The notes under the pieces are model-generated. The model did no database searches and was not told the DNA's origin. It worked only from the letters and a program-made list of their open reading frames with translations. A stretch of 48,892 nt of DNA, taken from assembly GCF_000374005.1 (NCBI RefSeq), contig NZ_KB893134.1, positions 1-48,892 of the forward strand, written 5' to 3'. Position numbers and translations under genes: made by a program. Of this stretch, positions 345 through 17,351 are shown piece by piece. Numbering within the stretch: position 1 is the first letter of the stretch; each line of letters opens with the position of its first letter. The stretch comes from Kiloniella laminariae DSM 19542. GTDB lineage: Bacteria; Pseudomonadota; Alphaproteobacteria; Kiloniellales; Kiloniellaceae.

Positions 345-1157
345 CTATAGTCGATATTTCTGTCGTGCCTGATGCCTCATAATCAGGCCTGCGCAGATAA
401 CCCCCAAAGCCACAGCCAGAATAATCAATGTCGCCAGTGCATTAATATCAGGAGTCACCCCGAGTTTCACTTTCGAGAAAATCACCATCGGCAACGTGCT
501 GCTCCCCGGTCCGGAGACAAAACTGGCAATAACCAGATCATCCAGAGACATCGTGAAAGAAAGCAACCAGCCTGCAAGCATGGCCGGCGTTAACAGTGGA
601 AGAGTGATATCCCAGAGGACGCGCAAAGGCTTGCCCCCAAGATCCATGGCAGCTTCCTCCAGATTCTCCTCCATCCCGGAAAGAGCGGACTGAACAATTA
701 CCGCCACATACGCCATGCTGAAAGTAATATGAGCGATGGTTATTGTTGTAACACCACGGCCATTTGGCCATCCAACCAGATCTTCCATCGAAACGAACAG
801 CAGCAGCAAAGACAGTCCCGTGATCACTTCCGGCATGACAAGCGGCGCTGTGATCATTCCGGTAAAGGCCAAGCGCCCCCGAAATCGGCCAAAACGCGAT
901 AAGGCAAGCCCTGCCAACACCCCAAGAATAACGGAAAAGGTTGCCGACACAGCAGCGATACGAAAACTGAGAAGAGCTGCATCGATAATCAGATCGTTCT
1001 CGAACAGCTCCCCATACCATTTAACCGAGAAACCACCCCAGATTGTCGCAAGGCGAGAGCTGTTAAAGGAATAGAAAATCAGGGACAGGATCGGAACATA
1101 GAGAAAGGCAAAACCGAAAACCAGCACAGAAAGCAGAAAGGTTGAGCGTTTTTTCAT
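345..1157 (-). CDS. potI: ABC transporter permease, PotI/PotC type
   Basis: A 270-residue inner-membrane permease of a spermidine/putrescine-class importer. It has about six hydrophobic segments, the first at residues 8-30. The cytoplasmic EAA-type loop that docks on the ATPase is seen around EEAAMDLGGKPLRVLWDITLP. Length and motif fit PotC/PotI. The start ATG 1157 has GGAG seven bases upstream and lies three bases after the stop of the partner permease, so the two are translationally close. It is the last gene of the minus-strand operon, before the hairpin at 257-297. Substrate choice depends mainly on the binding protein, so polyamine specificity is inferred from family only; a quaternary or methylated amine is equally possible. 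Confidence 0.88.
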   Translation of the reverse strand: MKKRSTFLLSVLVFGFAFLYVPILSLIFYSFNSSRLATIWGGFSVKWYGELFENDLIIDAALLSFRIAAVSATFSVILGVLAGLALSRFGRFRGRLAFTGMITAPLVMPEVITGLSLLLLFVSMEDLVGWPNGRGVTTITIAHITFSMAYVAVIVQSALSGMEENLEEAAMDLGGKPLRVLWDITLPLLTPAMLAGWLLSFTMSLDDLVIASFVSGPGSSTLPMVIFSKVKLGVTPDINALATLIILAVALGVICAGLIMRHQARQKYRL

Positions 1158-1160
1158 GAT

Positions 1161-2132
1161 CTAGCTCCGCTCCCCGTCTTTTGCCTGGAAATGCTGGTAC
1201 ATCATGATCGGCACCACCAGAAAAGCCAGAAGAGCAACAGCAACAGCAGAAGCAACAGGCCAGTCCCGGTTACTGAAGAACTCATCAAACAAAACACGTC
1301 CGATCATCAGGGTGTCATAATTGCCCAACAGCGCTGGAATAACGTATTCACCCGTTGCCGGAATAAAGACCAGCAGAGATCCGGCAACAATCCCCGGCAG
1401 CGTCAGTGGCAAGGTTACTGTGTAAAAAACCGTGAAGGGTTTGCCGCCCAGATCCGCCGCCGCCTCATTCAGACTTTCGTCCAGCTTTTCCATTGTTGCG
1501 TAGAGCGGCAAGATCATGAAAGGCAAATAGGAGTAGACAATCCCCACATAGATCGCCCCTTCGGTAAACATCATGTTCAGAGGCTCATCAATAATTCCCA
1601 TTGAAAGCAAGGCCCCGTTAATAATGCCGTTTTTATTCAACAACCCCATCCAGGCATAGATCCGCAAGAGAAACGATGTCCAGAAGGGCAAAACAACCAT
1701 CAGCAGCAGTATGCCCCGGATATCAGAACGAGAACGGGCTATCCCATAGGCCATGGGATAGCCAATCAACAGACAGATGATTGTCGATTTCCCCGCAAGC
1801 AGGAGAGAGTTGAGATAGGAGGAGTAATAGAGATCGTCGGTAACTAGAAATCTGAAGCTCTCGAAGGTGATTGAAATCGTAAAACTCAGATCTTCCGCCC
1901 ATTCGAACAAAGGTGTGAACGGCGGTCGGGCAATCATCCCTTCAGCCAGGCTGATCTTGAGAACAATGACAAAGGGAACGATAAAAAAAATCAACAGCCA
2001 GACAAGCGGTACGGCGAGGACAAGACGCTTCCAGTTCCGCTGTATCAACCTGCCAATCACATCCCCTGCCAGCTTTACAAGGGAACCCGAGGATAGCGTA
2101 GAAAGCTTGTGATTTGTGACATCCCTGCTCAT
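1161..2132 (-). CDS. potH: ABC transporter permease, PotH/PotB type
   Basis: A 323-residue permease that pairs with the downstream PotI-like protein. An N-terminal extension of roughly 35 residues precedes the first membrane segment (VLAVPLVWLLIFFIVPFVIVL), as in PotH proteins. The EAA loop is present near NEAAADLGGKPFTVFYTVTLP. ATG 2132 is chosen because it forms an ATGA overlap with the stop of the ATPase gene, typical of coupled translation. The longer frame opening at 2165 would overlap the ATPase by more than 30 bases. Role: half of the membrane channel of the amine importer. Confidence 0.87.
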   Translation of the reverse strand: MSRDVTNHKLSTLSSGSLVKLAGDVIGRLIQRNWKRLVLAVPLVWLLIFFIVPFVIVLKISLAEGMIARPPFTPLFEWAEDLSFTISITFESFRFLVTDDLYYSSYLNSLLLAGKSTIICLLIGYPMAYGIARSRSDIRGILLLMVVLPFWTSFLLRIYAWMGLLNKNGIINGALLSMGIIDEPLNMMFTEGAIYVGIVYSYLPFMILPLYATMEKLDESLNEAAADLGGKPFTVFYTVTLPLTLPGIVAGSLLVFIPATGEYVIPALLGNYDTLMIGRVLFDEFFSNRDWPVASAVAVALLAFLVVPIMMYQHFQAKDGERS

Positions 2133-3280
2133 TTCATCAACACCACCATACTGGAGGGATCCCACGAAACAAAAACTGCGTCTTCCCAGGTAAGGTTACG
2201 CTCCCCTTCCGAAGAGCGGCGCAGGTTCGGTGTCGTTGCTTGCAGAATCTGACCATTGGCCAAACGGATCCTGTAAATTGTATGAGTCCCCATATAGGCG
2301 ATATCGTGAATGAAGGCAGGAAGTTCGTTTATGCCCTGTCCCGCCTTAGCTTGACGTGTAATCTGGATTTTTTCTGGCCGGACTGCCAGCCAGAGCTGCC
2401 GGGCTTCCTTAACCGCCACCCCCCAATCGAGATGAAAATCCTGGCCAAGAGATCCACAGTGCGCCACCAGATGATCCCGACCGCTTTCCTTGACCTGACA
2501 ATCAAACATATTGATTGAGCCGATAAATTCAGCAGTGAATTTCGTTTCAGGACTTTCGTAAATATCCGACGGTGTTCCAACCTGGATCACATTACCTTTA
2601 TCCATAACCGCAATCCGGCTGGACAAAGTCATCGCTTCTTCCTGATCGTGCGTTACCACGATAAAGGTAATGCCCAACTTGTCCTGAATGTTCATCAGTT
2701 CAAACTGGGTATGCTCCCGCAATCTTTTGTCCAGTGCACCCAGCGGTTCATCCAGAAGCAGTACTTTTGGACGCTTCACCAGGGAACGCGCCAAAGCCAC
2801 CCGTTGCTTCTGCCCCCCGGACAGTTGGTTGGGTTTACGTTTGGCAAAGTCAGACATCTCGACCAGTGCCAGCATATCCGCAACCCGTTCGCGGGTTTCT
2901 GCCTTTGAGACTCCATCCCGGCGCAAGCCATAAGCAACGTTTTTTTCCACCGTCATATGCGGGAAGAGTGCATAGGATTGAAACATCATATTTACCGGGC
3001 GCTCGTAGGGGGGCATATCCGTCACATCAATGCCGTCAATAATCACCCGGCCTTTGCTGGGCTTTTCAAAGCCAGCCAGAATACGCAACAGTGTGGTTTT
3101 GCCACAACCAGACCCACCGAGAAGCGAGAAAAGTTCGCCCTTGTATATTTTCAGGCTGATGTCGTCGATTGCGGTAAAAACACCAAACTTCTTTCCGACA
3201 CCCTGAATATCGATAAAGGGCTCTGCTTCGGAATCAAAAGCAGGTCTATCCCCAACAATCGGCTTTTTGAATTCGGTCAT
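2129..3280 (-). CDS. potG: ABC transporter ATPase, PotG/PotA type
   Basis: A 383-residue cytoplasmic ATPase that powers the amine importer. It shows the Walker A motif GGSGCGKTT near residue 56, the signature LSGGQKQRVALARSL, Walker B LLLDEPLGALD and the H-loop VVTHDQEEA. A C-terminal TOBE-type regulatory domain follows from about residue 285, as is usual for PotA/PotG. ATG 3280 is preceded by AGGAG at ten bases; the adjacent GTG 3283 has slightly better spacing and is possible. It is separated from the binding-protein gene by 67 bases holding a hairpin, and overlaps the next permease gene by four bases. Confidence 0.9.
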   Translation of the reverse strand: MTEFKKPIVGDRPAFDSEAEPFIDIQGVGKKFGVFTAIDDISLKIYKGELFSLLGGSGCGKTTLLRILAGFEKPSKGRVIIDGIDVTDMPPYERPVNMMFQSYALFPHMTVEKNVAYGLRRDGVSKAETRERVADMLALVEMSDFAKRKPNQLSGGQKQRVALARSLVKRPKVLLLDEPLGALDKRLREHTQFELMNIQDKLGITFIVVTHDQEEAMTLSSRIAVMDKGNVIQVGTPSDIYESPETKFTAEFIGSINMFDCQVKESGRDHLVAHCGSLGQDFHLDWGVAVKEARQLWLAVRPEKIQITRQAKAGQGINELPAFIHDIAYMGTHTIYRIRLANGQILQATTPNLRRSSEGERNLTWEDAVFVSWDPSSMVVLMK

Positions 3281-3306
3281 CACACGCTTTCTCCTAAAGC
3301 GGGAAC

Positions 3307-3343
3307 GGGTAACCCTGCACCTGATCTCTCAGCAGGGCTACCC
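3307..3343 (-). other. Intercistronic hairpin between potF-like and potG-like genes
   Basis: GGGTAACCCTGC (3307-3318) pairs with GCAGGGCTACCC (3332-3343) over 12 positions with one wobble or mismatch and a 13-base loop. It sits between the stop of the binding-protein gene (3351) and the ATPase start (3280). No U-tract follows on the minus strand, so it looks like a processing or 3'-stabilising hairpin rather than a full terminator. Such structures often let the binding protein be made in excess over membrane components; that role is inferred here. Confidence 0.5.
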
Positions 3344-3350
3344 ACTGAAG

Positions 3351-4478
3351 TTAACTTCCAGTCTTGATCCGGCTCCAGCTGCGCGTCCGAACACGCTCTA
3401 CCTTTGGCGGCAATGTTTTTGCAAGGTACATCCGCTCCATAGCCTTGCTATCAGGATAGACTGCTGGATTGGTCCGAATCTCTTCGTCAACCAACGGGGT
3501 TGCAGCCTTGTTGGCATTCGCATACCAGGTATAGTTGGTTGCAGCCGCAATCACTTCGGGGCGCATCATATAGTTGAGCCACTTGTAGGCAGCTTCCTTG
3601 TTCGGCGCATCACTCGGGATCGCCCACATATCAAACCAGGCTCCGGCCCCTTCTTCCGGCACAAAATAATTCAGCTTGATCTCCACACCAGCTTCTTCCG
3701 CCCGTGCTGCTGCCACGGCATAATCACCGGACCAGGTCATGGCAATACAGCGTTCCTTGTTCGGTAAAGCGTTCAGATAGTTAGAGCTGTCAAACGTCGT
3801 GACACTGCCCCTGATCGCTGATACGGCCTCGACAACCTTGTCGTAATCTTCCGGGTTGGTCGACATGGGATCCAGGCCGAGATAGGAAAGCGTCATCGGA
3901 ATCACATCTACGGGTGAATCCAGCAAAGACACACCACAGTCCGCAAACTTGGAAATAATGGAGGGATCCAGGATCATGCTGAAAGAGCCAATGGGCGCAT
4001 CAGGCATCCGCTCCTTGATCATGTCAACATTGTAGGTGATGCCAACAGTACCCCACATGTAAGGTATTCCGTACCGGTTGTCCTCATCCCAGTTTGCCAC
4101 AACTTTCAGAATATCCACATCCAGGTTGGCATAATTATCGAGTTTGCTTTTATCAAGAACATCAAACACTCCCGCCTGGATAAGACGCGGCATGAACGAG
4201 CCTGCATGTAAAACAACATCATAACCGGAACTCCCGGTAATCAGCTTGGCATCAACCGTTTCGCTGGAATCGTAGGTGTCATAAATGACCTTGATCCCCG
4301 TTTCAGCTTCAAAATCAGCAATTGTACTTTCACCGATATAATCCACCCAGTTATAGACATGCAGTTCCTCGGCTTTAGCAGCTGATGCCGCCAAACATAA
4401 AGAAACAGCGGGTCCTGTCAGCAGTGCAACAGAGGAAAAGCGCCCCAATACAGCCCCAATTTTTTTTCTTGTACTCAT
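3351..4478 (-). CDS. potF: Periplasmic amine/polyamine-binding protein, PotF/PotD type
   Basis: A 375-residue substrate-binding protein. The Sec signal peptide runs from the basic N-terminus (MSTRKKIG) through a hydrophobic stretch to a likely AKA|EE cleavage near residue 36. The mature protein starts EELHVYNWVDYIGE, the hallmark opening of PotF/PotD proteins, and contains MWGTVGITYN and MTWSGDYAVAAARA typical of the family. ATG 4478 has GGGAG six bases upstream; a longer frame from 4502 lacks a better site. The gene follows the acyl-CoA dehydrogenase by 154 bases and starts the transporter block. Ligand is unknown; the catabolic genes opposite suggest a methylated or quaternary amine rather than a plain polyamine. 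Confidence 0.88.
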   Translation of the reverse strand: MSTRKKIGAVLGRFSSVALLTGPAVSLCLAASAAKAEELHVYNWVDYIGESTIADFEAETGIKVIYDTYDSSETVDAKLITGSSGYDVVLHAGSFMPRLIQAGVFDVLDKSKLDNYANLDVDILKVVANWDEDNRYGIPYMWGTVGITYNVDMIKERMPDAPIGSFSMILDPSIISKFADCGVSLLDSPVDVIPMTLSYLGLDPMSTNPEDYDKVVEAVSAIRGSVTTFDSSNYLNALPNKERCIAMTWSGDYAVAAARAEEAGVEIKLNYFVPEEGAGAWFDMWAIPSDAPNKEAAYKWLNYMMRPEVIAAATNYTWYANANKAATPLVDEEIRTNPAVYPDSKAMERMYLAKTLPPKVERVRTRSWSRIKTGS

Positions 4479-4632
4479 GAGTATCTCCCAGTTCATTGAC
4501 ACGCGCGCTCCCTGATTTTTTTATATTCTTCAGCGCATGCCCAATTTGATCAGAAGGTACCTCAACCAGATCTTGTTGTTTTTGTACTGCCTTGTTTTTG
4601 TGCTGGATAGAAGTCCCGCTTAAACATCAAGC

Positions 4633-5820
4633 TCATGGGTTCGTTGATCCAATCAGACCATCCAACCCACGTTTATTAAAAATTCCTCCTATAATTAATC
4701 TCTGGATTTCACTGGTACCTTCCCAGATCCGGTCCACCCTGACTTCCCGATAGAAGCGTTCGGCAGGATTTTCACGCATGTAGCCGCGTCCGCCAAAAAT
4801 CTGGACACAGCGATCGGCAACCCGTCCGACCATTTCCGAAGCATAAAGTTTGACCATCGAACAGCGCGCGTGAAGCCGCTTCAGATCCTCGCCCCGGTCA
4901 TGAGCCTGGGCAGCTTCATAGGTCATCAGCCGAGCTGCCCAGAGTTCTGTCGCACTATCTGCCAGCATGGCCTGGATCAACTGGTATTGGGCAATCGGCT
5001 GTCCATTTGCCAAACGACTCTTGGCAAAGGCACCGGCCTCTTCGATAAGCCGCTCCGCCGCCCCGCAACTCCGTGCCGCAATCATCAACCGTTCGCGCCG
5101 GAACCAGGCGCGGGTAAAATCCATGCCACTGCCTTCATCCCCAATCCGGTTTGACACCGGGACCCGCACATCCGTAAATCGATAGGTAGGGTGGTGTGCT
5201 TCAAAAGTATGAGAAAACAGCGGTGTATCAATTATTTCTATGCCATCAGAATCCAGATCGACGAAAAACAGGACATGTGCGCCCGCATGATCACCCCCCT
5301 CAAGCCGAGCCTGAAAAACCGCAAAATCAGCGAGGTTGGCGGAAGTAACAAACCACTTTTCTCCGTTCAGAACATAATGGTCATCTTCCAGACGGGCTGT
5401 GGCATTCAGGCCGTCAACATCAGACCCTGATTCTGCTTCGGTAATCGCATAACATTCGTGACGTTCCCCTTTGAGCAACGGCACAACATAACGATTGATT
5501 TGATCTTCACTACAGGCTTCAAACATCCATTTATGAGCTTCGCTGAAACACCAGCCCAGAGCATTTGTCACCCGCCCCAGTTGCTCGTAGATCGCAACCT
5601 GCTCGACAACACTAAGTTCCAGTCCGCCGTACTGCTTTGGTGCATCCATACCAGAAAGCTTGAAATCCTGGGCTTTCTGCCGTTGCCGCTGCCGGATCTC
5701 TGGTTTCAGTTCTCCACCATTCAACTCGGCCTCAACTTCGAAAGGAATAAGATCGTGCTCAACAAATTCACGCATTTTCCCAGCCCAAACCCGCGCCTCT
5801 TCAGGCAAGCGAAAGTCCAT
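4633..5820 (-). CDS. Acyl-CoA dehydrogenase
   Basis: A 395-residue FAD-dependent dehydrogenase of normal family length. It would introduce an alpha,beta double bond into an acyl-CoA and pass electrons to an electron-transfer flavoprotein. Seen: the FAD/substrate motif YAITEAESGSD, the loop NGEKWFVTSA, and the C-terminal catalytic-glutamate motif IWEGTSEIQR. ATG 5820 has AGGAG seven bases upstream; GTG 5823 is possible. It lies between the TetR gene (44 bases upstream) and the importer genes on the same strand, so it probably belongs to the same regulon. With the acyl-CoA synthetase on the other arm it suggests a CoA-thioester stage late in the pathway. The actual acyl group is unknown. Confidence 0.85.
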   Translation of the reverse strand: MDFRLPEEARVWAGKMREFVEHDLIPFEVEAELNGGELKPEIRQRQRQKAQDFKLSGMDAPKQYGGLELSVVEQVAIYEQLGRVTNALGWCFSEAHKWMFEACSEDQINRYVVPLLKGERHECYAITEAESGSDVDGLNATARLEDDHYVLNGEKWFVTSANLADFAVFQARLEGGDHAGAHVLFFVDLDSDGIEIIDTPLFSHTFEAHHPTYRFTDVRVPVSNRIGDEGSGMDFTRAWFRRERLMIAARSCGAAERLIEEAGAFAKSRLANGQPIAQYQLIQAMLADSATELWAARLMTYEAAQAHDRGEDLKRLHARCSMVKLYASEMVGRVADRCVQIFGGRGYMRENPAERFYREVRVDRIWEGTSEIQRLIIGGIFNKRGLDGLIGSTNP

Positions 5821-5864
5821 CACCCTGCTCCTGTATTGCTGACCAACCAGTTCTGCCCGGTCGA

Positions 5865-6527
5865 TTATTTTTTAGTAGGTTTTAAGCTCTCGATCTGAGT
5901 TGCTTTCGAAGGGAAAAGTGCCTTCATCAATTCGAATGAAGCGTTCGCCGCCTCCTGCTGCTTTATCGACTTCGGCGTAATCAGATACCTCTGCCACAAA
6001 CTGTCTGTCATACCCTCAATAGCCAGAGCCGCAATCTGCGGATCCACAATGGCTCCGCCCTCACCACAGACCTTGCGACAAAGATCACAAAGAACTTCTG
6101 TATGGGACTCATCCAGAGATCCGCACTCCTTCATGTAGGTAGGGCGCGATTTTGACTCTCCCCAAAAAGCATACCAGACAGCTATCTTCTTCCTGTTAAA
6201 AACCGAGCGATTGAAATCAGCCCTCACAACCGCACAGAGCTGCTCAACCGGATCCTCACCAGCCTCTTCAAGCGCCGTAGCCCAGGCATTACGATACTCC
6301 TCAGCCATAAACCTGAGCGTCTCAAGAAAAAGGATGTCCTTGCTCTTGAAGTGAAAAATCACAATCCCCTGCGACACCCCTGCACGATCAGCAACCTTTG
6401 CCAGAGTCGTGTCAGAAAACCCCAGTCGATCTATGCAGTCGATCGTCGCATCAATCAGCTGCTGCTTCCTGAAGACTTTTTGCGCTGCTCTGCTGCGCCT
6501 AGGAGTCTGTTTCATTTTCATTTCCAT
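5865..6527 (-). CDS. TetR-family regulator, BetI-like
   Basis: A 220-residue repressor-type protein. The N-terminal helix-turn-helix covers about residues 17-65 (TTLAKVADRAGVSQGIVIFHF). The ligand-binding half contains VWYAFWGESKSRPTYMKEC and resembles BetI, the choline-responsive repressor of glycine-betaine synthesis. It is first on the minus-strand arm and diverges from the aminotransferase gene across a 168-bp region with palindromes, so it most likely controls both arms and its own gene. The start is uncertain: in-frame ATGs at 6527, 6521 and 6515 are closely spaced and none has a strong ribosome site. BetI likeness hints at a choline- or betaine-like inducer, but this is inference. Confidence 0.82.
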   Translation of the reverse strand: MEMKMKQTPRRSRAAQKVFRKQQLIDATIDCIDRLGFSDTTLAKVADRAGVSQGIVIFHFKSKDILFLETLRFMAEEYRNAWATALEEAGEDPVEQLCAVVRADFNRSVFNRKKIAVWYAFWGESKSRPTYMKECGSLDESHTEVLCDLCRKVCGEGGAIVDPQIAALAIEGMTDSLWQRYLITPKSIKQQEAANASFELMKALFPSKATQIESLKPTKK

Positions 6528-6531
6528 ATTG

Positions 6532-6546
6532 ACTAAAAGCTTTAGT
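6532..6546. promoter_or_regulatory. Inverted repeat in the divergent control region (candidate operator)
   Basis: ACTAAA and TTTAGT arms flank a 3-base centre (AGC), starting 5 bases upstream of the longest TetR start. A regulator bound here would block the TetR-acdH-pot arm. Assignment rests on position and symmetry only. Confidence 0.35.
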
Positions 6547-6617
6547 TTAATATTTTTATATCGTCAATAATAAAATATATTACTAATAATATCAATGTTT
6601 TATATACAAATATTGAA

Positions 6618-6627
6618 TGAGCGCTCA
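6618..6627. promoter_or_regulatory. Perfect palindrome TGAGCGCTCA (candidate BetI-like operator)
   Basis: A 10-bp perfect palindrome centred in AT-rich DNA, 69 bases before the aminotransferase start. Its form resembles the TGAACGTTCA core expected of BetI-type operators, which fits the BetI-like regulator next to it. Binding is inferred. Confidence 0.45.
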
Positions 6628-6695
6628 GTTTATTATGGACAATTTCAAATTCCAAAATCACAATGCAGCAACAAAATGTCTGAAAGGTCCTAATC

Positions 6696-8009
6696 ATGAG
6701 ATCCCTTACCAAAAGCAACGCTCAGTTCAAAAAAGCCCTCCAAAAGCTGCCTCTTGGCGTCGCTTCCAACTTTCGCTACTGGGGCGATGACAAGACAATT
6801 TATGTCAAACAGGGAAAGGGGGCCCGCTTCTCGGACCTGGACGACAATCAATACATTGATTACCGCATGGGCTATGGGCCCGGCATTCTCGGTTATGCAG
6901 ATGATCGCGTTGATGCAGCTGCCATTGAGGGCATGAAGGTTGGTGGAGTCTTTGCCCTTGCAACCGAGCTGGAATACACCGTCGCGAATCGCATTTCCCG
7001 GATGGTACCTGCCGCCGAGCTGGTCCGTTTTTCCAACTCCGGGACAGAAGCCGTGATGGCGGCGCTGCGGATTGCCCGTGGTTATACCGGTAAAGACTCC
7101 TACATTATTATCGAAGGCGGATATCACGGCCTGTTTGACGCGGCACTTTGGTACACCCCCATGGAAGATTGGGTCGAAGGCCAGGGTGATCCTGAACTGG
7201 TTCCCTATAGCGACGGCGTCCCCCAGATGCTGAAAAAACTGATCCACACCGTACCGCTCAACGATGCCAACAAACTCGAAGAGGTACTCAAAAAGCACGG
7301 GGCTGATATTGGCGCCCTGTTGATCGAGCCGATTATGGGCAACTGTTGCAGCATTGCCGCGAACGCCGAATATATCCGCCAGGTGCGTGAACTCTGCGAT
7401 CGCTACGGCGTCATCATGATCATCGACGAGGTAAAAACCGGCTTCCGTGTCGCAAAGGGTGGTGTTCAGGAACTCTATGGAGTCAAAGCCGATCTCTGTA
7501 CCTTTGCCAAGGCTGTCGCCAATGGTTACCCGATCTCGATCGTCGCCGGACGCGAAGAAATCATGCGCAAGGTCGGCAATGGAATCGCCCATGGTGGCAC
7601 CTATACCGCCCATTCGGTATCGCTGGCAGCAGCAAACAAAACCTTGGAAATACTGGATGAAACCAGTGCGCTTGAAGATATCGCCAGCTTCGGTCTCGAC
7701 ATGCAAAAGGGCATCAGCGAAATCCTCGACAGCCGTGATATCCCCCACTCCTTCTCAGGTCACCCTTCCATGGGCGGACTATTCTTCAACGAACATCCAC
7801 CAGTGAACTACCGCAGCTGGAAAAAAAGCGACTACTCCTTCTATGACACCATGGCCCAGCATCTCCATGAACTGGGCATCCTCTGTGAACCGGACAGTCG
7901 CGAACCCTGGTTTATCTCGGCAGCACACGACAAGAGCTGTCTGGTTGAAACACTGAACAAGTTTGAAAAAGCCGTCGACCAGACCTGCGAACAGCTGAAA
8001 GTCGCCTGA
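6696..8009 (+). CDS. Class III PLP aminotransferase (GSA-aminomutase-like)
   Basis: A 437-residue PLP enzyme of the class III aminotransferase fold, close to the glutamate-1-semialdehyde aminomutase branch. Seen: RFSNSGTEAVMAALR (cofactor phosphate binding), IIEGGYHG, the cofactor-contacting aspartate in MIIDEVKTGFR, and the Schiff-base lysine in TFAKAVANG (about K272). ATG 6696 has AAAGG upstream. It is the first gene of the plus-strand arm. A heme role is unlikely: Alphaproteobacteria normally make 5-aminolevulinate by ALA synthase, and the gene sits among catabolic genes. More likely it transaminates a terminal or omega amine, giving an aldehyde or keto acid for the downstream dehydrogenase. 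Exact substrate unknown. Confidence 0.85.
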   Translation: MRSLTKSNAQFKKALQKLPLGVASNFRYWGDDKTIYVKQGKGARFSDLDDNQYIDYRMGYGPGILGYADDRVDAAAIEGMKVGGVFALATELEYTVANRISRMVPAAELVRFSNSGTEAVMAALRIARGYTGKDSYIIIEGGYHGLFDAALWYTPMEDWVEGQGDPELVPYSDGVPQMLKKLIHTVPLNDANKLEEVLKKHGADIGALLIEPIMGNCCSIAANAEYIRQVRELCDRYGVIMIIDEVKTGFRVAKGGVQELYGVKADLCTFAKAVANGYPISIVAGREEIMRKVGNGIAHGGTYTAHSVSLAAANKTLEILDETSALEDIASFGLDMQKGISEILDSRDIPHSFSGHPSMGGLFFNEHPPVNYRSWKKSDYSFYDTMAQHLHELGILCEPDSREPWFISAAHDKSCLVETLNKFEKAVDQTCEQLKVA

Positions 8010-8075
8010 TCCGGCCTTTCTGCCCTAATCCGTTTTTTACAGGGGAGGCAGGCCAAGCGGCTCGCCACAGATAAA

Positions 8076-9689: not shown

Positions 9690-9691
9690 AA

Positions 9692-11257
9692 ATGACAACA
9701 AGATATGATTCAATCGTGATCGGGGCCGGGCACAATGGCCTGACCTGTGCCGCCTACCTTGCCAAAGCTGGCAAGAAAGTTCTGGTTCTTGAAGCAAATG
9801 ACCGGATTGGTGGCATGGCCATTACAGAACAGGCCGCAGACGGGGTTTTGATCCCGACCTGCGCCCATCTGCTGTACCAGCTTCACCCTGATGTTATTCG
9901 GGACCTGGATCTGAAAGTGAAAATGGCCGCCTCTTCCCTCCCGACCATTGCCCTGGGCTCTGATGGTCGTCATCTCAAAATCCTGGGCGAGACCGTCACT
10001 GCCTTGAATGGCGCTGATCTATCAGCCAAGGACACAGAAAACTATGTTCTGGTCATGCGGGACCTGAAAAAATTCGCCCGTGTCCTCGGCGCTTTACTGG
10101 GGCAAAAGCCTCCCCATCTCAAAAACCGGGACTGGGAAGACACCAAAACCCTGCTTAAACTGGGCCTTTCGATCCGGATGATGGGCCGCAAATCCATGCA
10201 GGAATTTTTACGAATCGCCCTGCTCAATATTGCAGATCAACTGGAAGACCACCTGGAAAATGACCTTCTGATGGGTGTAACAGCCATGGAAGCCGTCTGG
10301 GGGACCCATCTTGCGCCCCGGTCCCCCGGTTCTGTTCTCAGCCTGATGTATAAACTCGCCGGAAGTCTAGAAGGAACCCAGGGGGGCATCGGTATTCCGG
10401 CAGGAGGCATCGGGAAAGTCTCAGAAGCACTTGAGCAGGCAGCAACCAGGGCCGGTGCAACCATCCGGACCAATACCCCGGTCAAGTCCATGCTGGTTGA
10501 AAATGACACGGTGATTGGAGTTGAGCTGGAATCCGGTGAAAAGATTTTAGCTGCTTCCGTCGCTTCCAGTGCAGACCCACAGCGGACCTTTCTGTCCCTT
10601 CTCGGGGCAGAACACCTCGATGCAGGCTTTACCCGGCGCCTTGGCAAAATTCGAAACCGTGGGGATGCTGCCAAGATAAATCTGGTGCTGGATGGCTTGC
10701 CTGAATTTACCGGCTTGAGCCAGCAGGATCTTGCTGCAAAACTGGTGATTGCCCCCAGCATTGATTATGTAGAAAAAGCCTTCAACCACGCCAAATACGG
10801 CGAGTTCAGCGAACACCCTGCTCTGGAGGTCACCCTTCCGACTGTGGTCGATCAGAGCAGTGCCGGAACAGGCAGGCATGTTCTCTCCATTGTCGCCCAA
10901 TATGCCCCTCATCAGCTCAAAGCGGGCTGGAGTGATGAACAACGGGCAGCTTTGGGAGAAGCGGTCATTCGTAAGCTGGAAGGTTATGCCCCCAATATCC
11001 GCAAGCAGATCATCTCGCAGCAGGTATTAACCCCGGCAGATCTGGAACAGCTTTTCAATGTTACAGGGGGCCACTGGCACCATCTTGAAATCCAGGTCGA
11101 TCAACTGTTGATGATGCGCCCGCTTCACGGAACAGCCCAGTATGAAACCCCCGTAGCAGGGCTTTATCTTTGTGGTGCCGGCGCACATCCGGGCGGTAAT
11201 GTTACTGGTGCGCCCGGTATGAATGCCGCCAAACGTATTCTGTCCAGAAAAGGCTGA
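9692..11257 (+). CDS. FAD-dependent oxidoreductase, COG1233/PYROXD2-like (second copy)
   Basis: A 521-residue paralogue of the preceding gene. It has the same VIGAGHNGLTCAA dinucleotide motif, VLVLEANDRIGG, and the C-terminal GLYLCGAGAHPGGNVTGAPG. The middle of the protein has diverged, so this is an old duplication, not a recent tandem copy. It starts two bases after the first copy and ends three bases before the GcvT-like gene, indicating tight cotranscription. Two paralogues kept side by side suggest a heterodimer, or two sequential oxidations on related intermediates. Both ideas are inference. Confidence 0.82.
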   Translation: MTTRYDSIVIGAGHNGLTCAAYLAKAGKKVLVLEANDRIGGMAITEQAADGVLIPTCAHLLYQLHPDVIRDLDLKVKMAASSLPTIALGSDGRHLKILGETVTALNGADLSAKDTENYVLVMRDLKKFARVLGALLGQKPPHLKNRDWEDTKTLLKLGLSIRMMGRKSMQEFLRIALLNIADQLEDHLENDLLMGVTAMEAVWGTHLAPRSPGSVLSLMYKLAGSLEGTQGGIGIPAGGIGKVSEALEQAATRAGATIRTNTPVKSMLVENDTVIGVELESGEKILAASVASSADPQRTFLSLLGAEHLDAGFTRRLGKIRNRGDAAKINLVLDGLPEFTGLSQQDLAAKLVIAPSIDYVEKAFNHAKYGEFSEHPALEVTLPTVVDQSSAGTGRHVLSIVAQYAPHQLKAGWSDEQRAALGEAVIRKLEGYAPNIRKQIISQQVLTPADLEQLFNVTGGHWHHLEIQVDQLLMMRPLHGTAQYETPVAGLYLCGAGAHPGGNVTGAPGMNAAKRILSRKG

Positions 11258-11260
11258 GCC

Positions 11261-12493
11261 ATGAGCAAATCATTGTCCCCCAAGACACCCGAAATTCTGT
11301 CCGCCAGACCGCGTGTCAATGCTGGTCGCAAGCCGACACCTTTTCACGCAAGACAGGTCGAAAAGTCTGAAACCAACGATTGGACACTCTGGGCCGGGTA
11401 CAGCATCCCCAACAGCTATACCAGTGTTGAGCTTGAGTACTTTTCCATCCGCAATGGCGCTACTCTCTATGATATTTCACCCATGTGTAAATATCGGATC
11501 AAGGGACCGGACGCAGAACGCTTCATGAACCGCTTTGTCCCGCGAGATGTAAGAAAGATCAAGCCCGGCCGGGTTGCCTATGCCATCTGGTGTAACGACG
11601 ATGGTCATGTTCTTGATGACGGAACGATATTCCGGTTTGGCCCTGACGACTTCAGACTCTGCAGCCAGGAACGCCAATACGCCTGGCTGATGGACTCCGC
11701 CCTTGGATTTGATGTCGAGATTCTGGACGAGACCGATGATATCGCTGCCCTTCAGTTCCAAGGGCCAACAACCTTTGCCATTCTCGAAGCCATGGGTCTG
11801 AAGGGCGTCGAGACACTCAAACCCTTTGATCTCCAGCATTTTTCCTTTGCCGGAACCGAGTTAATGATATCCCGGACCGGCTTTACCGGGGATCTGGGCT
11901 ATGAACTCTGGATTGAACCGGGCAAAGCCCTTGAACTCTGGGATGCTCTGATGGCAGCAGGCGCTGACCGGACAATATCCCCCGTCGGATCTCTTGCTCT
12001 CGACATGACGCGGATTGAAGCCGGATTTATTCAGCCTGCCGTCGATTTTCTGCATGCCGAACATGTGGTACGGCACACACGAGGGCGGTCACCCTTCGAA
12101 CTTGGCCTCGACTGGCAGGTTGACTTCACCAAAGGGCACTTCACTGGTCGGCGCGCCCTGTTAAAGGAAAAAGAAGCCAACAGCTCGCGTTACTGTTTTG
12201 TCGGCCTCGAAATTGAAGGCAACAAGCCCGCTCACAATGCACTGGTATATCACAAACAAAAAAAGGAAATCGGCCATATCACCTCGGCCGTCTGGTCCCC
12301 GACCATGAAAAACAATCTCGCCATGGCGCTGCTTCAGCGTCCCTTTGGCGTGGATATTACAGAGGATCTCTGGGTCGAAATCTACGTCGACAAGGAACTC
12401 AAATGGGACCGGGTAATGGCCCGGGCAAAAATTGTTGATCGCCCTTTCTTCAATCCCCCGAGAAAACGTCAGACTCCCCCCGCAAGATTCTAG
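11261..12493 (+). CDS. GcvT-fold folate-dependent methyltransferase (demethylase-like)
   Basis: A 410-residue protein of the aminomethyltransferase family (COG0404), which includes GcvT, DmdA and the LigM/DesA O-demethylases. Seen: LYDISPMCKYRIKGPDAERF near residue 70, DDGTIFRFGPDDF, LQFQGPTTFAILE, SRTGFTGDLGYELW and the C-terminal GHITSAVWSPTMKNNLA. Folate proteins of this fold accept a methyl or methylene group on tetrahydrofolate. No other glycine-cleavage genes (gcvH, gcvP) are near, so a glycine-cleavage role is unlikely. It sits three bases after the second FAD oxidoreductase, as expected if the flavoprotein makes the one-carbon group it captures. At 410 residues it is longer than DmdA, mainly through an N-terminal extension. 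Confidence 0.82.
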   Translation: MSKSLSPKTPEILSARPRVNAGRKPTPFHARQVEKSETNDWTLWAGYSIPNSYTSVELEYFSIRNGATLYDISPMCKYRIKGPDAERFMNRFVPRDVRKIKPGRVAYAIWCNDDGHVLDDGTIFRFGPDDFRLCSQERQYAWLMDSALGFDVEILDETDDIAALQFQGPTTFAILEAMGLKGVETLKPFDLQHFSFAGTELMISRTGFTGDLGYELWIEPGKALELWDALMAAGADRTISPVGSLALDMTRIEAGFIQPAVDFLHAEHVVRHTRGRSPFELGLDWQVDFTKGHFTGRRALLKEKEANSSRYCFVGLEIEGNKPAHNALVYHKQKKEIGHITSAVWSPTMKNNLAMALLQRPFGVDITEDLWVEIYVDKELKWDRVMARAKIVDRPFFNPPRKRQTPPARF

Positions 12494-12502
12494 GAGCAAT
12501 TT

Positions 12503-14602
12503 GTGCGTCACCGTTTATCCCCGCTGCTCAACCCCCGATCCGTTGCCCTGATCGGAGCCAGTGCCAAACCAGGCTCTGTCAGCCAGACCATGTTGCAACA
12601 CATCCGTCTTGGCGGCTTTACCGGACCTGTCTTTGCCATACACCCGACCAACGTCGAGGTAGACGGTTTTCGCTGTTACACCAGCCTTGACGCATTACCC
12701 GAAGTACCGGAGCACGCAATTCTCTGTGTTGGGGATCACCATGTCGTAGAACGCCTTTCGGAATGTGCCGCTCTTGGCATAAAAGCTGCAACCATTCTCT
12801 CGCCCCTTCATGCAGAAGGGAGCAATCCCGACAGCCTGAAACAGGCGGTTCGCACTATTGCCGAGGAAACGGGTATCCAGATCGTTGGGGCGAACTGTAA
12901 CGGGTTTTATAATTTCTGTTCCGGCCTTTGGGCCTGTGGTTTTCCAACCCGTCATGATCATCGTGCCGGAGGGATAACACTCCTGACCCACTCCGGGTCA
13001 CTGTTTAACGCCATTCTTGATACCGACTCCCGGCTTGACTACAATTATGTCGTCTCTACGGGGCAGGAGTTAACCACGAGCCTTGCAGATTACATGGACT
13101 TCGCCCTGGAGCAGGACTCGACCCGGGTCATCGGCTTGTTTATGGAAACAGCACGAGATCCTATAGGTTTCGCACAGGCACTGGCAAAGGCAGCAGAACG
13201 CAAGATACCGGTTGTGGCGCTCAAGGTCGGCAGAACAGAAAAATCAGCTCAGCTGGCCGCCAGTCACAGCGGTGCTCTGGTCGGCAACGATCAGGCCTAC
13301 ACTGCCCTCTTTGACCGCTACGGTGTACTGCGTGTTGAAACCATCGACGAGCTGGTTTTCACCCTGATGCTTTTCGCCCGGTCATCAACTCTTGGGCCCG
13401 GTGGGCTTGCAGCGATCCATGATTCAGGGGGCGAACGCGAGTTGATGGTCGATCTTGCCGAACAGATGCAAATTCCCTTTGCCGAACTGACCACTGAAAC
13501 CCGCCAGCGTATCCAGTCAAAACTGGGGCCGGGCCTCAAAGCAGGAAACCCTCTGGATGCCTGGCATTCATACAATAATTATGAGGAAAGTTACGGCGAA
13601 AATCTGATTGAATTGATGACAGATCCCCAGGTTGCCCTTGGTGTTGTTGTGGGGGATCGGGGCCCCGGGGGGCAGATCTACCCAGAATATATACGCTTCG
13701 CAAAAGCCGCGCGTGATGCCTCGGGAAAGCCAGTCTGCGTTGTTGCCAACCATCAGGGAACAGGAACCTGCCCCAGTGTTATCGAGGCAACACATAACGG
13801 AATCCCGGTACTGGACGGCATCGCTCCTTTTCTGAAGGCCGCAAAACACCTTCTCAACTATCGGGATTTTCAGGCCCGACAGGAAATCGGCATTCCACAG
13901 CCCGCCGAGGAAGTCGTGCATAAATGGCGCAGCTATCTGGGCAGAGGAACCCCGATGGATGAATGTACCGCCTACCAGCTTCTCCAGGATTTTGGCATAA
14001 CCGTCCCGGCTTCCCAACTGGCTCACTCTGCTTTTGAAACTGTAATCGCCGCCCGGAAGATCGGGTATCCGGTTGTGGTCAAAACGGCTGAAAGCGGGAT
14101 AAATCACAAATCCGATGCCGGAGGCGTTTTCCTCAACCTGACAAATGACGCTGCGGTTTCAAGTGCATACGACCAGCTTTCCCAAAATCTTGGTCCCAGA
14201 GTCATGATCGCTTCCATGATCAGAGAGAAAGGTGTCGAGATGATTCTGGGGATGGTGAATGACCCTCAGTTCGGCCCTGTCGTCATGGTTGGATTTGGCG
14301 GTATTCATGCCGAGATTCTCGCCGATACAGCCGTGGCCCTGCCTCCTTTTGGGAAAGCGACTGCCTTGCGCTTGATCGACAACCTTAAATTAAAGGCACT
14401 TCTGGAAGGTGTTCGCGGCGCAAGGCCAACAGACATGGACGCCCTGCTCGACTGCATCACACGCTTTGCCAGTATGGTCCACGCGCTTGGTGATCTGGTC
14501 AGTGAATTTGATATCAACCCCCTTTTCGCCTTGCCTCAGGGCTGCATTGCCCTGGATGCCCTGGTTGTACAGCAGCACCCTCAGGCAAAGGCAGCCGAAT
14601 AA
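12503..14602 (+). CDS. ADP-forming acyl-CoA synthetase (ACD superfamily)
   Basis: A 699-residue single-chain acid-thiol ligase that forms acyl-CoA from an acid, ATP and CoA. Domains in order: CoA-binding Rossmann domain (about 5-130, VALIGASAKPGSVSQ), succinyl-CoA-ligase-like domains with the phosphorylated histidine in AASHSGALVGND (about H255), and a C-terminal ATP-grasp domain from about 470 (YPVVVKTAESGINHKSDAGG). The start is GTG 12503, with TAGGAG eight bases upstream that also contains the stop of the previous gene. The same superfamily contains DddX, an ATP-dependent DMSP lyase, so lyase chemistry is an alternative. Its likely job here is to activate the carboxylate made by the aldehyde dehydrogenase. 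Confidence 0.85.
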   Translation: MRHRLSPLLNPRSVALIGASAKPGSVSQTMLQHIRLGGFTGPVFAIHPTNVEVDGFRCYTSLDALPEVPEHAILCVGDHHVVERLSECAALGIKAATILSPLHAEGSNPDSLKQAVRTIAEETGIQIVGANCNGFYNFCSGLWACGFPTRHDHRAGGITLLTHSGSLFNAILDTDSRLDYNYVVSTGQELTTSLADYMDFALEQDSTRVIGLFMETARDPIGFAQALAKAAERKIPVVALKVGRTEKSAQLAASHSGALVGNDQAYTALFDRYGVLRVETIDELVFTLMLFARSSTLGPGGLAAIHDSGGERELMVDLAEQMQIPFAELTTETRQRIQSKLGPGLKAGNPLDAWHSYNNYEESYGENLIELMTDPQVALGVVVGDRGPGGQIYPEYIRFAKAARDASGKPVCVVANHQGTGTCPSVIEATHNGIPVLDGIAPFLKAAKHLLNYRDFQARQEIGIPQPAEEVVHKWRSYLGRGTPMDECTAYQLLQDFGITVPASQLAHSAFETVIAARKIGYPVVVKTAESGINHKSDAGGVFLNLTNDAAVSSAYDQLSQNLGPRVMIASMIREKGVEMILGMVNDPQFGPVVMVGFGGIHAEILADTAVALPPFGKATALRLIDNLKLKALLEGVRGARPTDMDALLDCITRFASMVHALGDLVSEFDINPLFALPQGCIALDALVVQQHPQAKAAE

Positions 14603-14663
14603 AAGCTGAACCAGTATACAGAACACCAAGCAGAGCCAAAAACCAAGCCGGGAGAAACAAGAA

Positions 14664-16187
14664 ATGCACCTCAATCAGGTTGAACATTACAGCAAGAGTG
14701 ACTGGCAAAATTTTGCCGCCCGTTTCCGTCCTGAAACAGGCTTGTTTATTGACGGCTCTTATCAACAGGCCCTCGGGGGAGGCAGCTTTCAGTCCATCAA
14801 TCCCGCAACAGGCAACCCTGTTGCCGAACTGGCCCTGGGGACAGAGGCAGATATCGACAAGGCCGTTGCAGCGGCACAGAAATCCTTTCGCTCAGGTAGC
14901 TGGTCGCGGATGGCCCCAAGGGATCGGATGTCTGTCCTCTATCGTCTTGCAGATTTGATTGAGGAAAACGGGGCTGAGTTGGCTCTGATGGACTCCCTGG
15001 ATATGGGGAAACCCATCGCAGACTGTCTTGCTGTCGATGTTCCCGAAGTTGCCAAGACCTTCCGCTTTTTTGCTGAATGTATCGACAAGATTGAAGGCAG
15101 TGTCACCGCCACAGAATATAATGTTCTCAGTATGGTCCTGCGCGAACCTATTGGTGTTGTTGCCGCGATCTCGCCCTGGAATTATCCCCTGCTGATGGCT
15201 GCATGGAAAGTTGCCCCTGCCCTCGCAGCCGGGAACAGTGTTATCCTCAAACCCGCCGAGCAATCTCCGCTAAGCTGTCTGAAACTTGCCGAACTTTTTG
15301 TCCAGGCCGGAGGACCCGCAGGGGTTTTAAATGTGGTCAATGGTATGGGCGAAGTCGCAGGAAAAGCTCTCGCTCTCCATATGGATGTTGGCAAGGTCAG
15401 CTTTACCGGTTCAACTGAAGTCGGCAAGTTGATGCTGATTTACGCGGGCCAGAGCAACATGAAAAAAGTCGCGCTCGAATGTGGTGGCAAGAGCCCTCAT
15501 ATTTTCCTGGGCGATCTCAGCGGTGGCGATCTTGATGCAGCTGTCGAAACGGCTTGCGGGGCAATATACAGCAATATGGGCGAAGTCTGTAGTGCGGGTT
15601 CTCGTATCATTGTTGACAGTACAATTCACGAAGAGTTCGTCGAGCGATTTATCCAGAAGGGCAAAGATGCCTTCACACCAGGCGACCCGCTTGACCCGGC
15701 AACGAACATGGGCCCCCTTGTCGACCACGGCTCTCAGGCCCGGGTGTTAAAGATGGCTGAAAATGCCATCCTGGAAGGGGCAAAGCTTCAGTTTGGCGGC
15801 GATGCCCCCGGGGGAGATTTGTCCTCGGGTGCCTATATCAATCCAACCCTCTTTACCCTGGTGCACAACGATATGTCCATTGCCCGGAACGAAGTCTTCG
15901 GGCCCGTTGCCTCCGTTATAAAGGTAAACGGTCTAGATGAAGCCCTTGCTGTTGCTAATGACAGCGATTATGGCCTCGCCGCAGGGATCTGGACTAACGA
16001 TCTCAACAAGGCCCATCGCTTTGTCAAGGAGGTCGAGAGCGGTACCGTTTTTGTCAATTCCTATGATGAAGGGGATATGACCCAGCCCTTTGGAGGCTTT
16101 AAACAGTCCGGCAATGCCAAAGACAAGTGTTTCGAAAGCCTTCTGAGCTACACAAGATCCAAAGCTGCGTGGTACCGTTTACGATAA
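14664..16187 (+). CDS. NAD(P)-dependent aldehyde dehydrogenase
   Basis: A 507-residue enzyme of the betaine-aldehyde / gamma-aminobutyraldehyde dehydrogenase type. Seen: the cofactor region SPWNYPLLMAAWKVAPALAAG, VSFTGSTEVGK, the general-base glutamate in ALECGGKSP (about E272) and the catalytic cysteine in GEVCSAGSR (about C309). The C-terminal MTQPFGGFKQSG motif is also present. ATG 14664 has GGGAG upstream. It follows the acyl-CoA synthetase by 61 bases. It would oxidise the aldehyde produced by the aminotransferase or by oxidative N-dealkylation to an acid, which the neighbouring synthetase could then activate. Substrate unknown. Confidence 0.88.
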   Translation: MHLNQVEHYSKSDWQNFAARFRPETGLFIDGSYQQALGGGSFQSINPATGNPVAELALGTEADIDKAVAAAQKSFRSGSWSRMAPRDRMSVLYRLADLIEENGAELALMDSLDMGKPIADCLAVDVPEVAKTFRFFAECIDKIEGSVTATEYNVLSMVLREPIGVVAAISPWNYPLLMAAWKVAPALAAGNSVILKPAEQSPLSCLKLAELFVQAGGPAGVLNVVNGMGEVAGKALALHMDVGKVSFTGSTEVGKLMLIYAGQSNMKKVALECGGKSPHIFLGDLSGGDLDAAVETACGAIYSNMGEVCSAGSRIIVDSTIHEEFVERFIQKGKDAFTPGDPLDPATNMGPLVDHGSQARVLKMAENAILEGAKLQFGGDAPGGDLSSGAYINPTLFTLVHNDMSIARNEVFGPVASVIKVNGLDEALAVANDSDYGLAAGIWTNDLNKAHRFVKEVESGTVFVNSYDEGDMTQPFGGFKQSGNAKDKCFESLLSYTRSKAAWYRLR

Positions 16188-16327
16188 CCAAGGTAGGGGG
16201 AGTATGGTTCCTTATTTGATAAAAAATTACGCCACTGTTATCCAGACCTTTTACAAGCGTACAAATTTAACCAACAATAAACCGTGCCCCCTAAAGCCAG
16301 TAAGACAGTACCGGGAGACATAAAATA

Positions 16328-17284
16328 ATGGTGCCGAAGCTCATCGTCCGTATCGAAGCAATCAACGAAGAAGCTGAAAGTATACGCTCCTACGAACTGC
16401 GGGCTGTTGATGGATCAGATCTTCCAGCTTTTTCAGCTGGCTCACACATCGATTTTTTTCTCCCGGGCAATATGATCCGGCAATATTCCCTGTCAAATAA
16501 TCCTGCTGAACGTCACAGATACATCGTCGCTGTTCAGAAAGAGGAAAATGGGCGCGGCGGTTCCAGCTATGTTCATAAAAATCTGAAATCGGGGAGCCAG
16601 ATCGAAATCTCTCATCCCCGGAATCACTTTGAACTGGATGAAACTGCAGGACGGTACAAACTGATTGCTGGTGGCATTGGTATCACCCCCATTCTCTCGA
16701 TGGCCCGTCGGTTGAAATCCCTCGGGAAACCGTTTCAGCTTTATTATGCCTGTCGCAACAAACAGCGGGCAGCTTTCACCGAAGAGATGGTCGCTTCAGG
16801 GCTTTCAGCCCATGTGCTGTATTCCTTCGACGATCAGCACGGTCCCCTGAAAACCCAGGCGCTGTTTGGTCAACCGGAAAAAGATGTTCAAATTTACTGC
16901 TGTGGCCCGACCGGCCTTATGGATGCCGTCAAAAAGGTCACTCAGAACTGGCCAGCAGGAACCGTGCGTTTTGAACATTTTTCTGCCGATGAGACCACAG
17001 GTCCTAGGGCGGATGACGGCAGCTTTGAAGTGATCATCAACAGCACAGGCAAATGTTATCTCATTCCTGCTGGGAAAAGCATTCTCGCCGTTCTGGCCGA
17101 AAATGGTATTTTTGTCGATAATGCCTGCTGCGAGGGAATCTGCGGCACCTGTGAAACCGGCCTGCTTGACGGCGAAGCCGATCATCGAGATATGGTTCTG
17201 AGTGATCAGGAAAAGGCCGAAAACCGCCACATCATGGTCTGTTGCTCCCGCGCAAAAAGTCCGAGCCTTACGCTGGATCTCTAA
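16328..17284 (+). CDS. PDR/VanB-family flavin and [2Fe-2S] reductase
   Basis: A 318-residue oxygenase reductase. Order: flavin-binding barrel (IRQYSLSNNPAER), nucleotide-binding domain (LIAGGIGITPILSMARRL and YCCGPTGLMDAVKK), then a C-terminal plant-type ferredoxin domain. The ferredoxin cysteines are in ACCEGICGTCETG and in VCCSRA near the end. Such proteins carry electrons from NAD(P)H to a Rieske oxygenase, as in GbcAB or VanAB. No Rieske oxygenase subunit is in this window, so the partner must be elsewhere, or the reductase serves another acceptor. It follows the aldehyde dehydrogenase after 140 bases, so it may have its own promoter, and is closed by the hairpin at 17311-17351. GGGAG precedes ATG 16328. 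Confidence 0.86.
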   Translation: MVPKLIVRIEAINEEAESIRSYELRAVDGSDLPAFSAGSHIDFFLPGNMIRQYSLSNNPAERHRYIVAVQKEENGRGGSSYVHKNLKSGSQIEISHPRNHFELDETAGRYKLIAGGIGITPILSMARRLKSLGKPFQLYYACRNKQRAAFTEEMVASGLSAHVLYSFDDQHGPLKTQALFGQPEKDVQIYCCGPTGLMDAVKKVTQNWPAGTVRFEHFSADETTGPRADDGSFEVIINSTGKCYLIPAGKSILAVLAENGIFVDNACCEGICGTCETGLLDGEADHRDMVLSDQEKAENRHIMVCCSRAKSPSLTLDL

Positions 17285-17310: not shown

Positions 17311-17351
17311 AAGATAAAGGCTCCTCATTCGTAATGAGGAGCCCTTATCTT
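17311..17351. terminator. Bidirectional terminator between the catabolic locus and hemY
   Basis: A 19-bp near-perfect stem (17311-17329 with 17333-17351, one mismatch or wobble, 3-base loop) lies between the stops of two convergent genes (17284 and 17370). Its A-rich left foot and T-rich right foot fit termination from both sides. Confidence 0.75.

Follow-up and report, generated by a model that had tools for sequence, protein, structure and literature searches.

A patchily distributed gene island in Kiloniella laminariae that may serve the catabolism of a cationic N-methylated amine

We analysed the first 48,892 nucleotides (the window) of a 941-kb contig, C1, from Kiloniella laminariae DSM 19542, whose assembly comprises 4.44 Mb in 38 contigs, and describe a gene cluster at 345-17284 that contains two COG1233 flavoproteins, FadA and FadB, and a GcvT-fold protein. 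We suggest, giving the idea about even chances, that it belongs to a catabolic island, patchy in its distribution, through which a cationic N-methylated amine is broken down. From the genes, their order, conservation, co-occurrence and retained motifs we infer its substrate class, reactions, complex formation and regulation as follows. A Pot-type importer would take up the substrate, and the initial oxidative attack would fall to a Rieske oxygenase coded just outside the window. Next, FadA and FadB, probably as a heteromer, would oxidise the N-methyl groups, and GcvT would hand the one-carbon unit to tetrahydrofolate; sarcosine oxidase and dimethylglycine dehydrogenase work in this way, though with other flavoproteins. 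A class III aminotransferase (AT3) would transaminate the freed amine, an aldehyde dehydrogenase (ALDH) oxidise the aldehyde, an ADP-forming acyl-CoA ligase (ACD) join the acid to CoA and an acyl-CoA dehydrogenase (ACAD) perform a dehydrogenation, both arms of the cluster being possibly controlled by a BetI-like TetR regulator via one palindrome. The methylated-amine role is supported by a linked, group-V-like Rieske oxygenase, a GcvT nearest to trimethylamine N-oxide (TMAO) demethylase, BetI-like regulators and polyamine-type importers. Methylated amines make up a large share of marine and soil dissolved organic nitrogen; if the reading is true, the conserved three-gene demethylation unit would add an enzyme type, and the triad would mark a substrate to which no breakdown genes are assigned.

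All 13 open reading frames of the original prediction are present, and Pfam and NCBIfam scans agree with its family names (Table 1). PotI, PotH, PotG, PotF, ACAD and TetR form a left arm on the minus strand; the divergent right arm, on the plus strand, comprises AT3, FadA, FadB, GcvT, ACD, ALDH and VanB, the first six as a tight run with intergenic gaps of 66, 2, 3, 9 and 61 nt. The count of 13 fails for the locus, since a Rieske gene lies beyond the window and the membership of VanB is doubtful. None of the 10 locus proteins tested reached a curated NCBIfam cut-off among the matches listed, and family membership alone therefore assigns no specific function. The proposed coverage of deamination, oxidation and CoA steps is nevertheless borne out by family. 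As to methylated-amine catabolism, the class is backed by the Rieske link, the GcvT score, the BetI-like TetR and the importer, while the exact substrate is unproven. The claim that no named pathway has this set stands within the open-access literature searched, where we recognised no description of it among the top listings; subscription papers lay outside the search.

The triad FadA-FadB-GcvT is widely conserved. Scanning 84,980 species genomes with a FadA profile yielded at least 574 relatives, from which we kept the best 80 by score as named loci; these are the closest FadA relatives, and counts from them do not describe remote ones. FadB lies directly downstream of FadA in 78 of the 80 and GcvT comes next in 74, and the triad is complete in all 72 loci with at least 3 kb of room downstream. 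It occurs in rhizobia, Rhodobacteraceae, Burkholderiales and Gammaproteobacteria, the nearest named FadA among the matches listed being that of Aestuariispira insulae (Alphaproteobacteria; 77%). In a tree of 46 sequences (19 FadA, 19 FadB and 8 others) FadA and FadB each formed one clade (100/100), which places the origin of the pair before its spread. Across 70 loci mean pairwise identity is 73% for FadA versus 51% for FadB; a mirror-tree comparison of these loci did not discriminate, with FadA/FadB/GcvT distances correlating at 0.91-0.96 and pairs that involve TetR or PotG nearly as strongly, at 0.87-0.94. Annotation in the four plasmid loci viewed reads only 'NAD(P)/FAD-dependent oxidoreductase' and 'aminomethyltransferase family protein'. 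Remoter FadA relatives (about 37-42%) often lack GcvT, and three distant ones in relatives of K. laminariae (L038-L040; 40-42%) had no FadB or GcvT match in the stretch fetched.

Neighbouring genes were counted by tblastn at 1e-12 with named query proteins, so that some matches are generic and names such as "PuuB-like" and "TMADH-like" are labels of the analysis; automatic gene calling gave wrong frames in high-GC loci. Among the 50 loci with 9 kb on both sides, matches were found to the class III aminotransferase in 48, TetR in 45, a binding protein in 42, a Pot permease in 41 and a Rieske protein in 30, and to a methyltransferase (MT9) in 28, ACAD in 7, GS37 in 7, ACD in 5, ALDH in 5, PuuB-like in 4 and TMADH-like in 2. 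ACAD, ACD and ALDH are thus rare, and the downstream half is peculiar to loci of the window kind. Among 58 related genomes, K. laminariae included, GcvT is matched at E 1e-80 or better in 13, which include only one of eight congeners, and the island is therefore patchy; in that genus the whole order recurs in congener G002 (13 of 13 genes, 83-98% identity).

Some FadA-like proteins stand in other surroundings. On a Shinella sumterensis plasmid (L135, 303-13256) a locus built on a single COG1233 protein, 39% identical to FadA, has GcvT, an ADP-forming ligase, enoyl-CoA hydratase, 3-hydroxyacyl-CoA dehydrogenase, BKACE and an ABC importer. A plasmid of Rhizobium sp. NZLR1 (L136, 279-16303) carries a FadA-like protein near ACAD, CoA ligase, MaoC, GABA transaminase, SSADH, RidA and ETF genes. 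Another FadA-like protein, on a Sphingobium TomTYG65 plasmid (L133, 12529-16368), has a Rieske-type protein and a bile-acid symporter as direct neighbours, and the stretch carries no annotated FadB or GcvT. Many Mesorhizobium loci place MT9, a SAM methyltransferase, between the TetR gene and FadA (8-10 kb region of L043-L060 and of further rhizobial loci); the L022 copy is nearest to phosphoethanolamine N-methyltransferases, an odd companion for a demethylation operon.

The left edge of the window is a contig break in an IS1595-like element. The piece that opens C1 reads in translation like a transposase start, and its DNA is repeated on C17 and C18 at 100%; contig C38 begins with a transposase end (Pfam DDE_Tnp_IS1595, 4.8e-9). 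Next on C38 is a Rieske oxygenase gene (385-1665), and the genes of the second BetI-like TetR and of an M24 protein come after it; in G002, PotI is followed after a 216-nt gap by the Rieske gene, then TetR, then M24. The locus therefore extends past the window. Most likely the insertion element split it in the assembly, the C1-C38 junction being drawn from congener gene order and not from reads; in principle C38 might instead join another copy of the element. The prediction that hairpins close both ends did not hold: a strong hairpin occurs only at the right, the left candidate at 261-276 has just 5 pairs, and the whole hairpin scan gave no excess over shuffles (18 found; shuffle mean 20.2, sd 4.5).

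Linkage of this Rieske gene to FadA recurs. Among the 58 genomes a Rieske match (1e-60) occurs in 12 of the 14 with a FadA of at least 55%, versus 3 of the 44 others (Fisher test, 4e-8, with K. laminariae itself included, the 55% cut chosen after viewing the list and relatedness not corrected); G039 and G040 have FadA alone, and G026, G027 and G046 the Rieske alone. Of 72,556 plasmid records, seven carry FadA at 60% or more, and exactly these carry this Rieske at 50% or more, the two genes lying about 4 to 12 kb apart by listed coordinates. The linked Rieske protein is best matched by CntA and GbcA. Two papers on group V Rieske proteins give an aromatic residue (Va) or Asn (Vb) at CntA position 203 (PMC7948474), a Cys-X-X-Cys pair in some members (PMC10952381), and YxECYHC as the group Va signature of CntA with NxECYHC as Vb-like (PMC7948474, PMC10952381). 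The K. laminariae and congener proteins carry DNEGYH, in which the bridging Glu at CntA 205, common to the group V enzymes CntA, GbcA and Stc2, is kept. The motif was readable in 45 of 66 proteins, among them none of the eight of the Riesk32 type; it reads DxEGYHV in 25 of the 29 readable Riesk8w proteins and YxECYHC in 10 of 11 Riesk19 proteins, the latter mostly from gamma- and betaproteobacterial loci. Another Rieske protein of K. laminariae (L131, 5124-7846) has the GbcA-like NxECYHC and, read by eye, a reductase-like neighbour.

The three core proteins were compared with known families. The top NCBIfam score of GcvT is to TMAO demethylase (259.5 bits, cut-off 1100, profile 386-761 of 763), which is also its best PDB match. 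It falls below the cut-offs of a second glycine-cleavage GcvT profile (177.2, cut-off 235.85) and of DmdA (150 bits, cut-off 410), and is weakly matched by LigM and DesA (69 and 62 bits). All 31 aligned proteins share Asp119, Asp120, Glu215 and Arg251, which we take to be catalytic and pterin-site residues; plain glycine-cleavage GcvT has such residues too, and they therefore do not separate it from the N-demethylases. The genome holds 7 further GcvT-domain matches. In sarcosine oxidase and dimethylglycine dehydrogenase, flavin-dependent N-methyl oxidation is coupled to a GcvT fold that passes the one-carbon unit to tetrahydrofolate. The present GcvT matches heterotetrameric sarcosine oxidase and dimethylglycine dehydrogenase/oxidase in sequence, but here the flavin part is two COG1233/CrtI-type proteins in place of a DAO fold, and GcvT is a separate protein of 410 residues. 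Tdm, in contrast, is a single chain of 793 residues, of which GcvT matches the C-terminal half only, and GcvT here adjoins the flavoproteins. In FadA and FadB the Pfam domain Amino_oxidase spans the whole length and DAO only residues 7-43 and 7-61. FadA scores below cut-off to both CrtO (280, cut-off 1000) and the CrtI family (132, cut-off 238). AlphaFold2 models (mean pLDDT 82.7 for FadA, 87.2 for FadB) retrieved with Foldseek, behind carotenoid desaturases, nicotine oxidoreductase, monoamine oxidases and putrescine oxidase. Fold and superfamily are thus common to FadA/FadB and the CrtI/CrtO carotenoid desaturases and ketolases, whereas here FadB and GcvT follow in 72 of 72 loci with room.

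The importer points to a charged amine. Its binding protein, ATPase and two permeases lie in one run, and these four parts and the pocket acids are common to it and the PotFGHI putrescine importer, with Glu185 replaced by Asp; the PotF-like protein scores 404 to curated PotF, below the cut-off of 636. Among 12 PotF-type binding proteins (at least 45% identity), that of the window included, Trp37, Trp244, Asp247 and Asp278 are kept in all, a single protein has Glu for Asp39, and residue 185 is Ser in one protein and Asp in the other 11. The ligand roles of these residues and their E. coli numbering are as we presume them; several PotF entries exist, and the E. coli chain used for comparison may have been an engineered variant. 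In the SBP5-type binding proteins, mostly rhizobial with some from Rhodobacteraceae, the Trp cage is kept, with Gly39, a non-acid at 247 and Cys278, in all 13 checked (out of 49 loci with SBP5 matches). Since the acids are kept in one type and lost in the other, the triad probably serves at least two substrate classes; for the window type we favour a methylated, polyamine-like dication, and for loci of the SBP5 type an amine of lower charge that is perhaps quaternary. The contrast between acid-bearing and acid-free pockets makes the substrate question directly testable. Genes downstream in other loci give further hints. AcuI (acrylyl-CoA reductase) exceeds its curated cut-off in L081 and L109 and enoyl-CoA hydratase is found in L081 and L099; the genes follow the core in these three gammaproteobacterial loci and hint that the route ends in a short acyl-CoA. 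In L116 and L120, where AT3 and ALDH gave no match, PuuA-, PuuB- and amidotransferase-like genes occur along with a 40% match to the other aminotransferase, a content that points to a primary amine intermediate there.

Regulation and the VanB-type reductase are less clear. The palindrome TGAGCGCTCA occurs once in the window, between the arms, and is kept in G002; as a candidate operator, it may let the BetI-like TetR control both arms. Across 1.89 Mb of loci there are 5 copies, against about 1.8 expected by plain base counting. Three of these, including the one in G002, lie between a TetR gene and either FadA or AT3, one lies between TMADH-like and SBP5 genes and one elsewhere; most loci lack the exact word. 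VanB, placed in the set by the original prediction, follows a 140-nt gap with two promoter-like matches (such matches are near chance in number). Its relatives at E 1e-70 occur in 13 of the 58 genomes, among them 6 congeners that carry it at 67-69% identity and have no FadA or GcvT match at 1e-80, and its membership is therefore doubtful. In the three of these examined, VanB adjoins a frame of 995-997 residues and not FadA; in L138, the only one scanned, that neighbour is YdbH-like. In two of the three, a Rieske gene and a reductase-sized or reductase-matching frame lie about 3 kb from VanB, the pair in L138 (again the only one scanned) being GbcA-like (655 of 670 bits) and GbcB-like (446 of 500). 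VanB as the obvious Rieske partner is thereby weakened; the gene may stand on its own and yet could act for the oxygenase.

Several observations weigh against the methylated-amine reading. The Rieske proteins of K. laminariae and its congener differ from group V enzymes in having Asp at the CntA 203 position, neither aromatic nor Asn, and Gly and Val in place of the Cys pair. This Asp, at the ammonium-contact position of CntA, is outside the residues named for group V in the accessible parts of PMC7948474 and PMC10952381, and may bind a protonated amine. Twenty of the 50 well-flanked loci have no Rieske match, the C1-C38 junction is itself inferred from a congener, and TGAGCGCTCA was not found in L129 or L130, which carry the Rieske gene. 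For both flavoproteins the top Foldseek match is a carotenoid desaturase (TM 0.75 for FadA, 0.77 for FadB), with amine oxidases at about 0.5-0.6, a superfamily-level likeness only. GcvT scores 225.6 bits to glycine-cleavage GcvT (cut-off 300), close behind TMAO demethylase. No folate enzyme is found among the 13 genes (flanking frames were annotated in part only), and ACAD, ACD and ALDH recur in just 7, 5 and 5 of the 50 loci.

The cluster might instead serve ordinary, non-methylated polyamine or diamine catabolism, with FadA and FadB as chain-cleaving amine oxidases and GcvT in another one-carbon or a structural role. The kept PotF pocket, the KauB/PuuC-like ALDH, the Puu-like genes of L116 and L120 and putrescine oxidase among the fold neighbours all suit this reading, which we nonetheless consider unlikely: it has no need for a folate-fold GcvT, yet one follows FadB in every locus with room, nor for a linked Rieske with a group-V-like bridging Glu. 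PuuA, PuuB and PuuD, which stand beside a transporter in the Puu gamma-glutamyl putrescine pathway, are absent from the 13 genes. We attach a similarly small probability to an alternative gene set for a known mono-quaternary amine (choline, carnitine, gamma-butyrobetaine, 5-aminovalerate betaine or trimethyllysine). BetI-like regulators, the group Va motif of the Riesk19 proteins in other loci and the acid-free Trp cage of the SBP5 type speak for such a substrate; the three acids that stay in the window-type pocket suit a dication, and K. laminariae already has a second, GbcA-like Rieske. Against 5-aminovalerate betaine in particular, ACAD is by its residues an unlikely glutaryl-CoA dehydrogenase, although no search aimed at this was made.

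In another reading the substrate would be a sulfonium compound such as dimethylsulfoniopropionate (DMSP), demethylated by GcvT in the manner of DmdA, and the route would end in a three-carbon acyl-CoA. This would suit the AcuI genes above cut-off and a DMSP-lyase-fold protein in the Fuscovulum locus, but is very improbable given the far lower score of GcvT to DmdA than to TMAO demethylase and the aminotransferase matches in 48 of 50 flanked loci. We give still less credence to the O-demethylation or degradation of a methoxylated aromatic, in which VanB, Rieske and GcvT would act as in lignin-monomer pathways: the VanB-type reductase and the weak LigM and DesA likeness of GcvT recall such pathways, whereas VanB is unlinked in relatives, the importer is of a cation type and accompanied by an aminotransferase, and the Rieske has the group V bridging Glu. 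Homarine, in whose catabolism Mgd is involved according to a 2026 paper, was set aside, as an aminotransferase is ill-suited to a ring nitrogen.

Within the methylated-amine reading we can put forward a more specific version, to which we assign a low probability. FadA-FadB-GcvT would be a new type of folate-coupled N-demethylase made of two carotenoid-desaturase-type flavoproteins, which in PotF-type loci (the window, Aestuariispira, a Porticoccaceae metagenome-assembled genome and others) would act on methylated dicationic polyamines, for example the N-methylated propyleneamine chains of diatom silica. Three-carbon units leaving as acyl-CoA would account for the CoA ligase of the window as well as for the hydratase and AcuI genes seen in some gammaproteobacterial loci. 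Oxidative N-demethylation with folate is known; the flavoprotein pair and the odd Rieske motif would be new.

Table 1. Features of the window in and around the cluster, with the evidence for each.
Feature	Position	Strand	Evidence
Transposase start, IS1595-like judged by its matching other end; truncated at contig end; outside pathway	1..215	-	Translation; 100% copies on C17, C18; C-terminal piece opens C38
PotI-like ABC permease	345..1157	-	Family scan; 98% identity in congener G002
PotH-like ABC permease	1161..2165	-	Family scan; 95% identity in congener G002
PotG-like ABC ATPase with TOBE domain	2129..3283	-	Family scan; present in congener G002
PotF-like binding protein	3351..4502	-	Family scan; keeps Trp37, Asp39, Trp244, Asp247, Asp278 (E. 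coli numbering, presumed offset)
ACAD, EGTSEIQ motif	4633..5823	-	Family scans; matched in 12 of 80 named loci
BetI-type TetR regulator	5865..6527	-	Family scans
Palindrome TGAGCGCTCA in divergent promoter gap; possible TetR operator	6618..6627	.	Single copy in window
AT3, GSAM/GntE-like kind	6696..8009	+	Family scans
FadA, COG1233 flavoprotein; more conserved member of FadA/FadB pair	8076..9689	+	Family scans, alignment, model, fold search, tree
FadB, COG1233 flavoprotein, FadA paralogue	9692..11257	+	Family scans, model, fold search, tree
GcvT-fold protein, nearest C-terminal part of TMAO demethylase	11261..12493	+	Family scan, PDB match, alignment
ACD	12503..14602	+	Family scans
ALDH, nearest KauB/PuuC kind	14664..16187	+	Family scan
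VanB-type reductase (FAD, NAD, 2Fe-2S); membership doubtful	16328..17284	+	Family scans; present without rest of locus in 6 congeners
19-pair hairpin, probable terminator, right end	17311..17351	.	Hairpin scan

The M24 protein near the second BetI-like TetR (L130, 3709-4950; L129, 12999-14231) presumably resembles creatinase, a name that NCBIfam did not give. Since it is matched in just 2 of 103 loci, L129 and L130 themselves, we set it aside as a part of the pathway.

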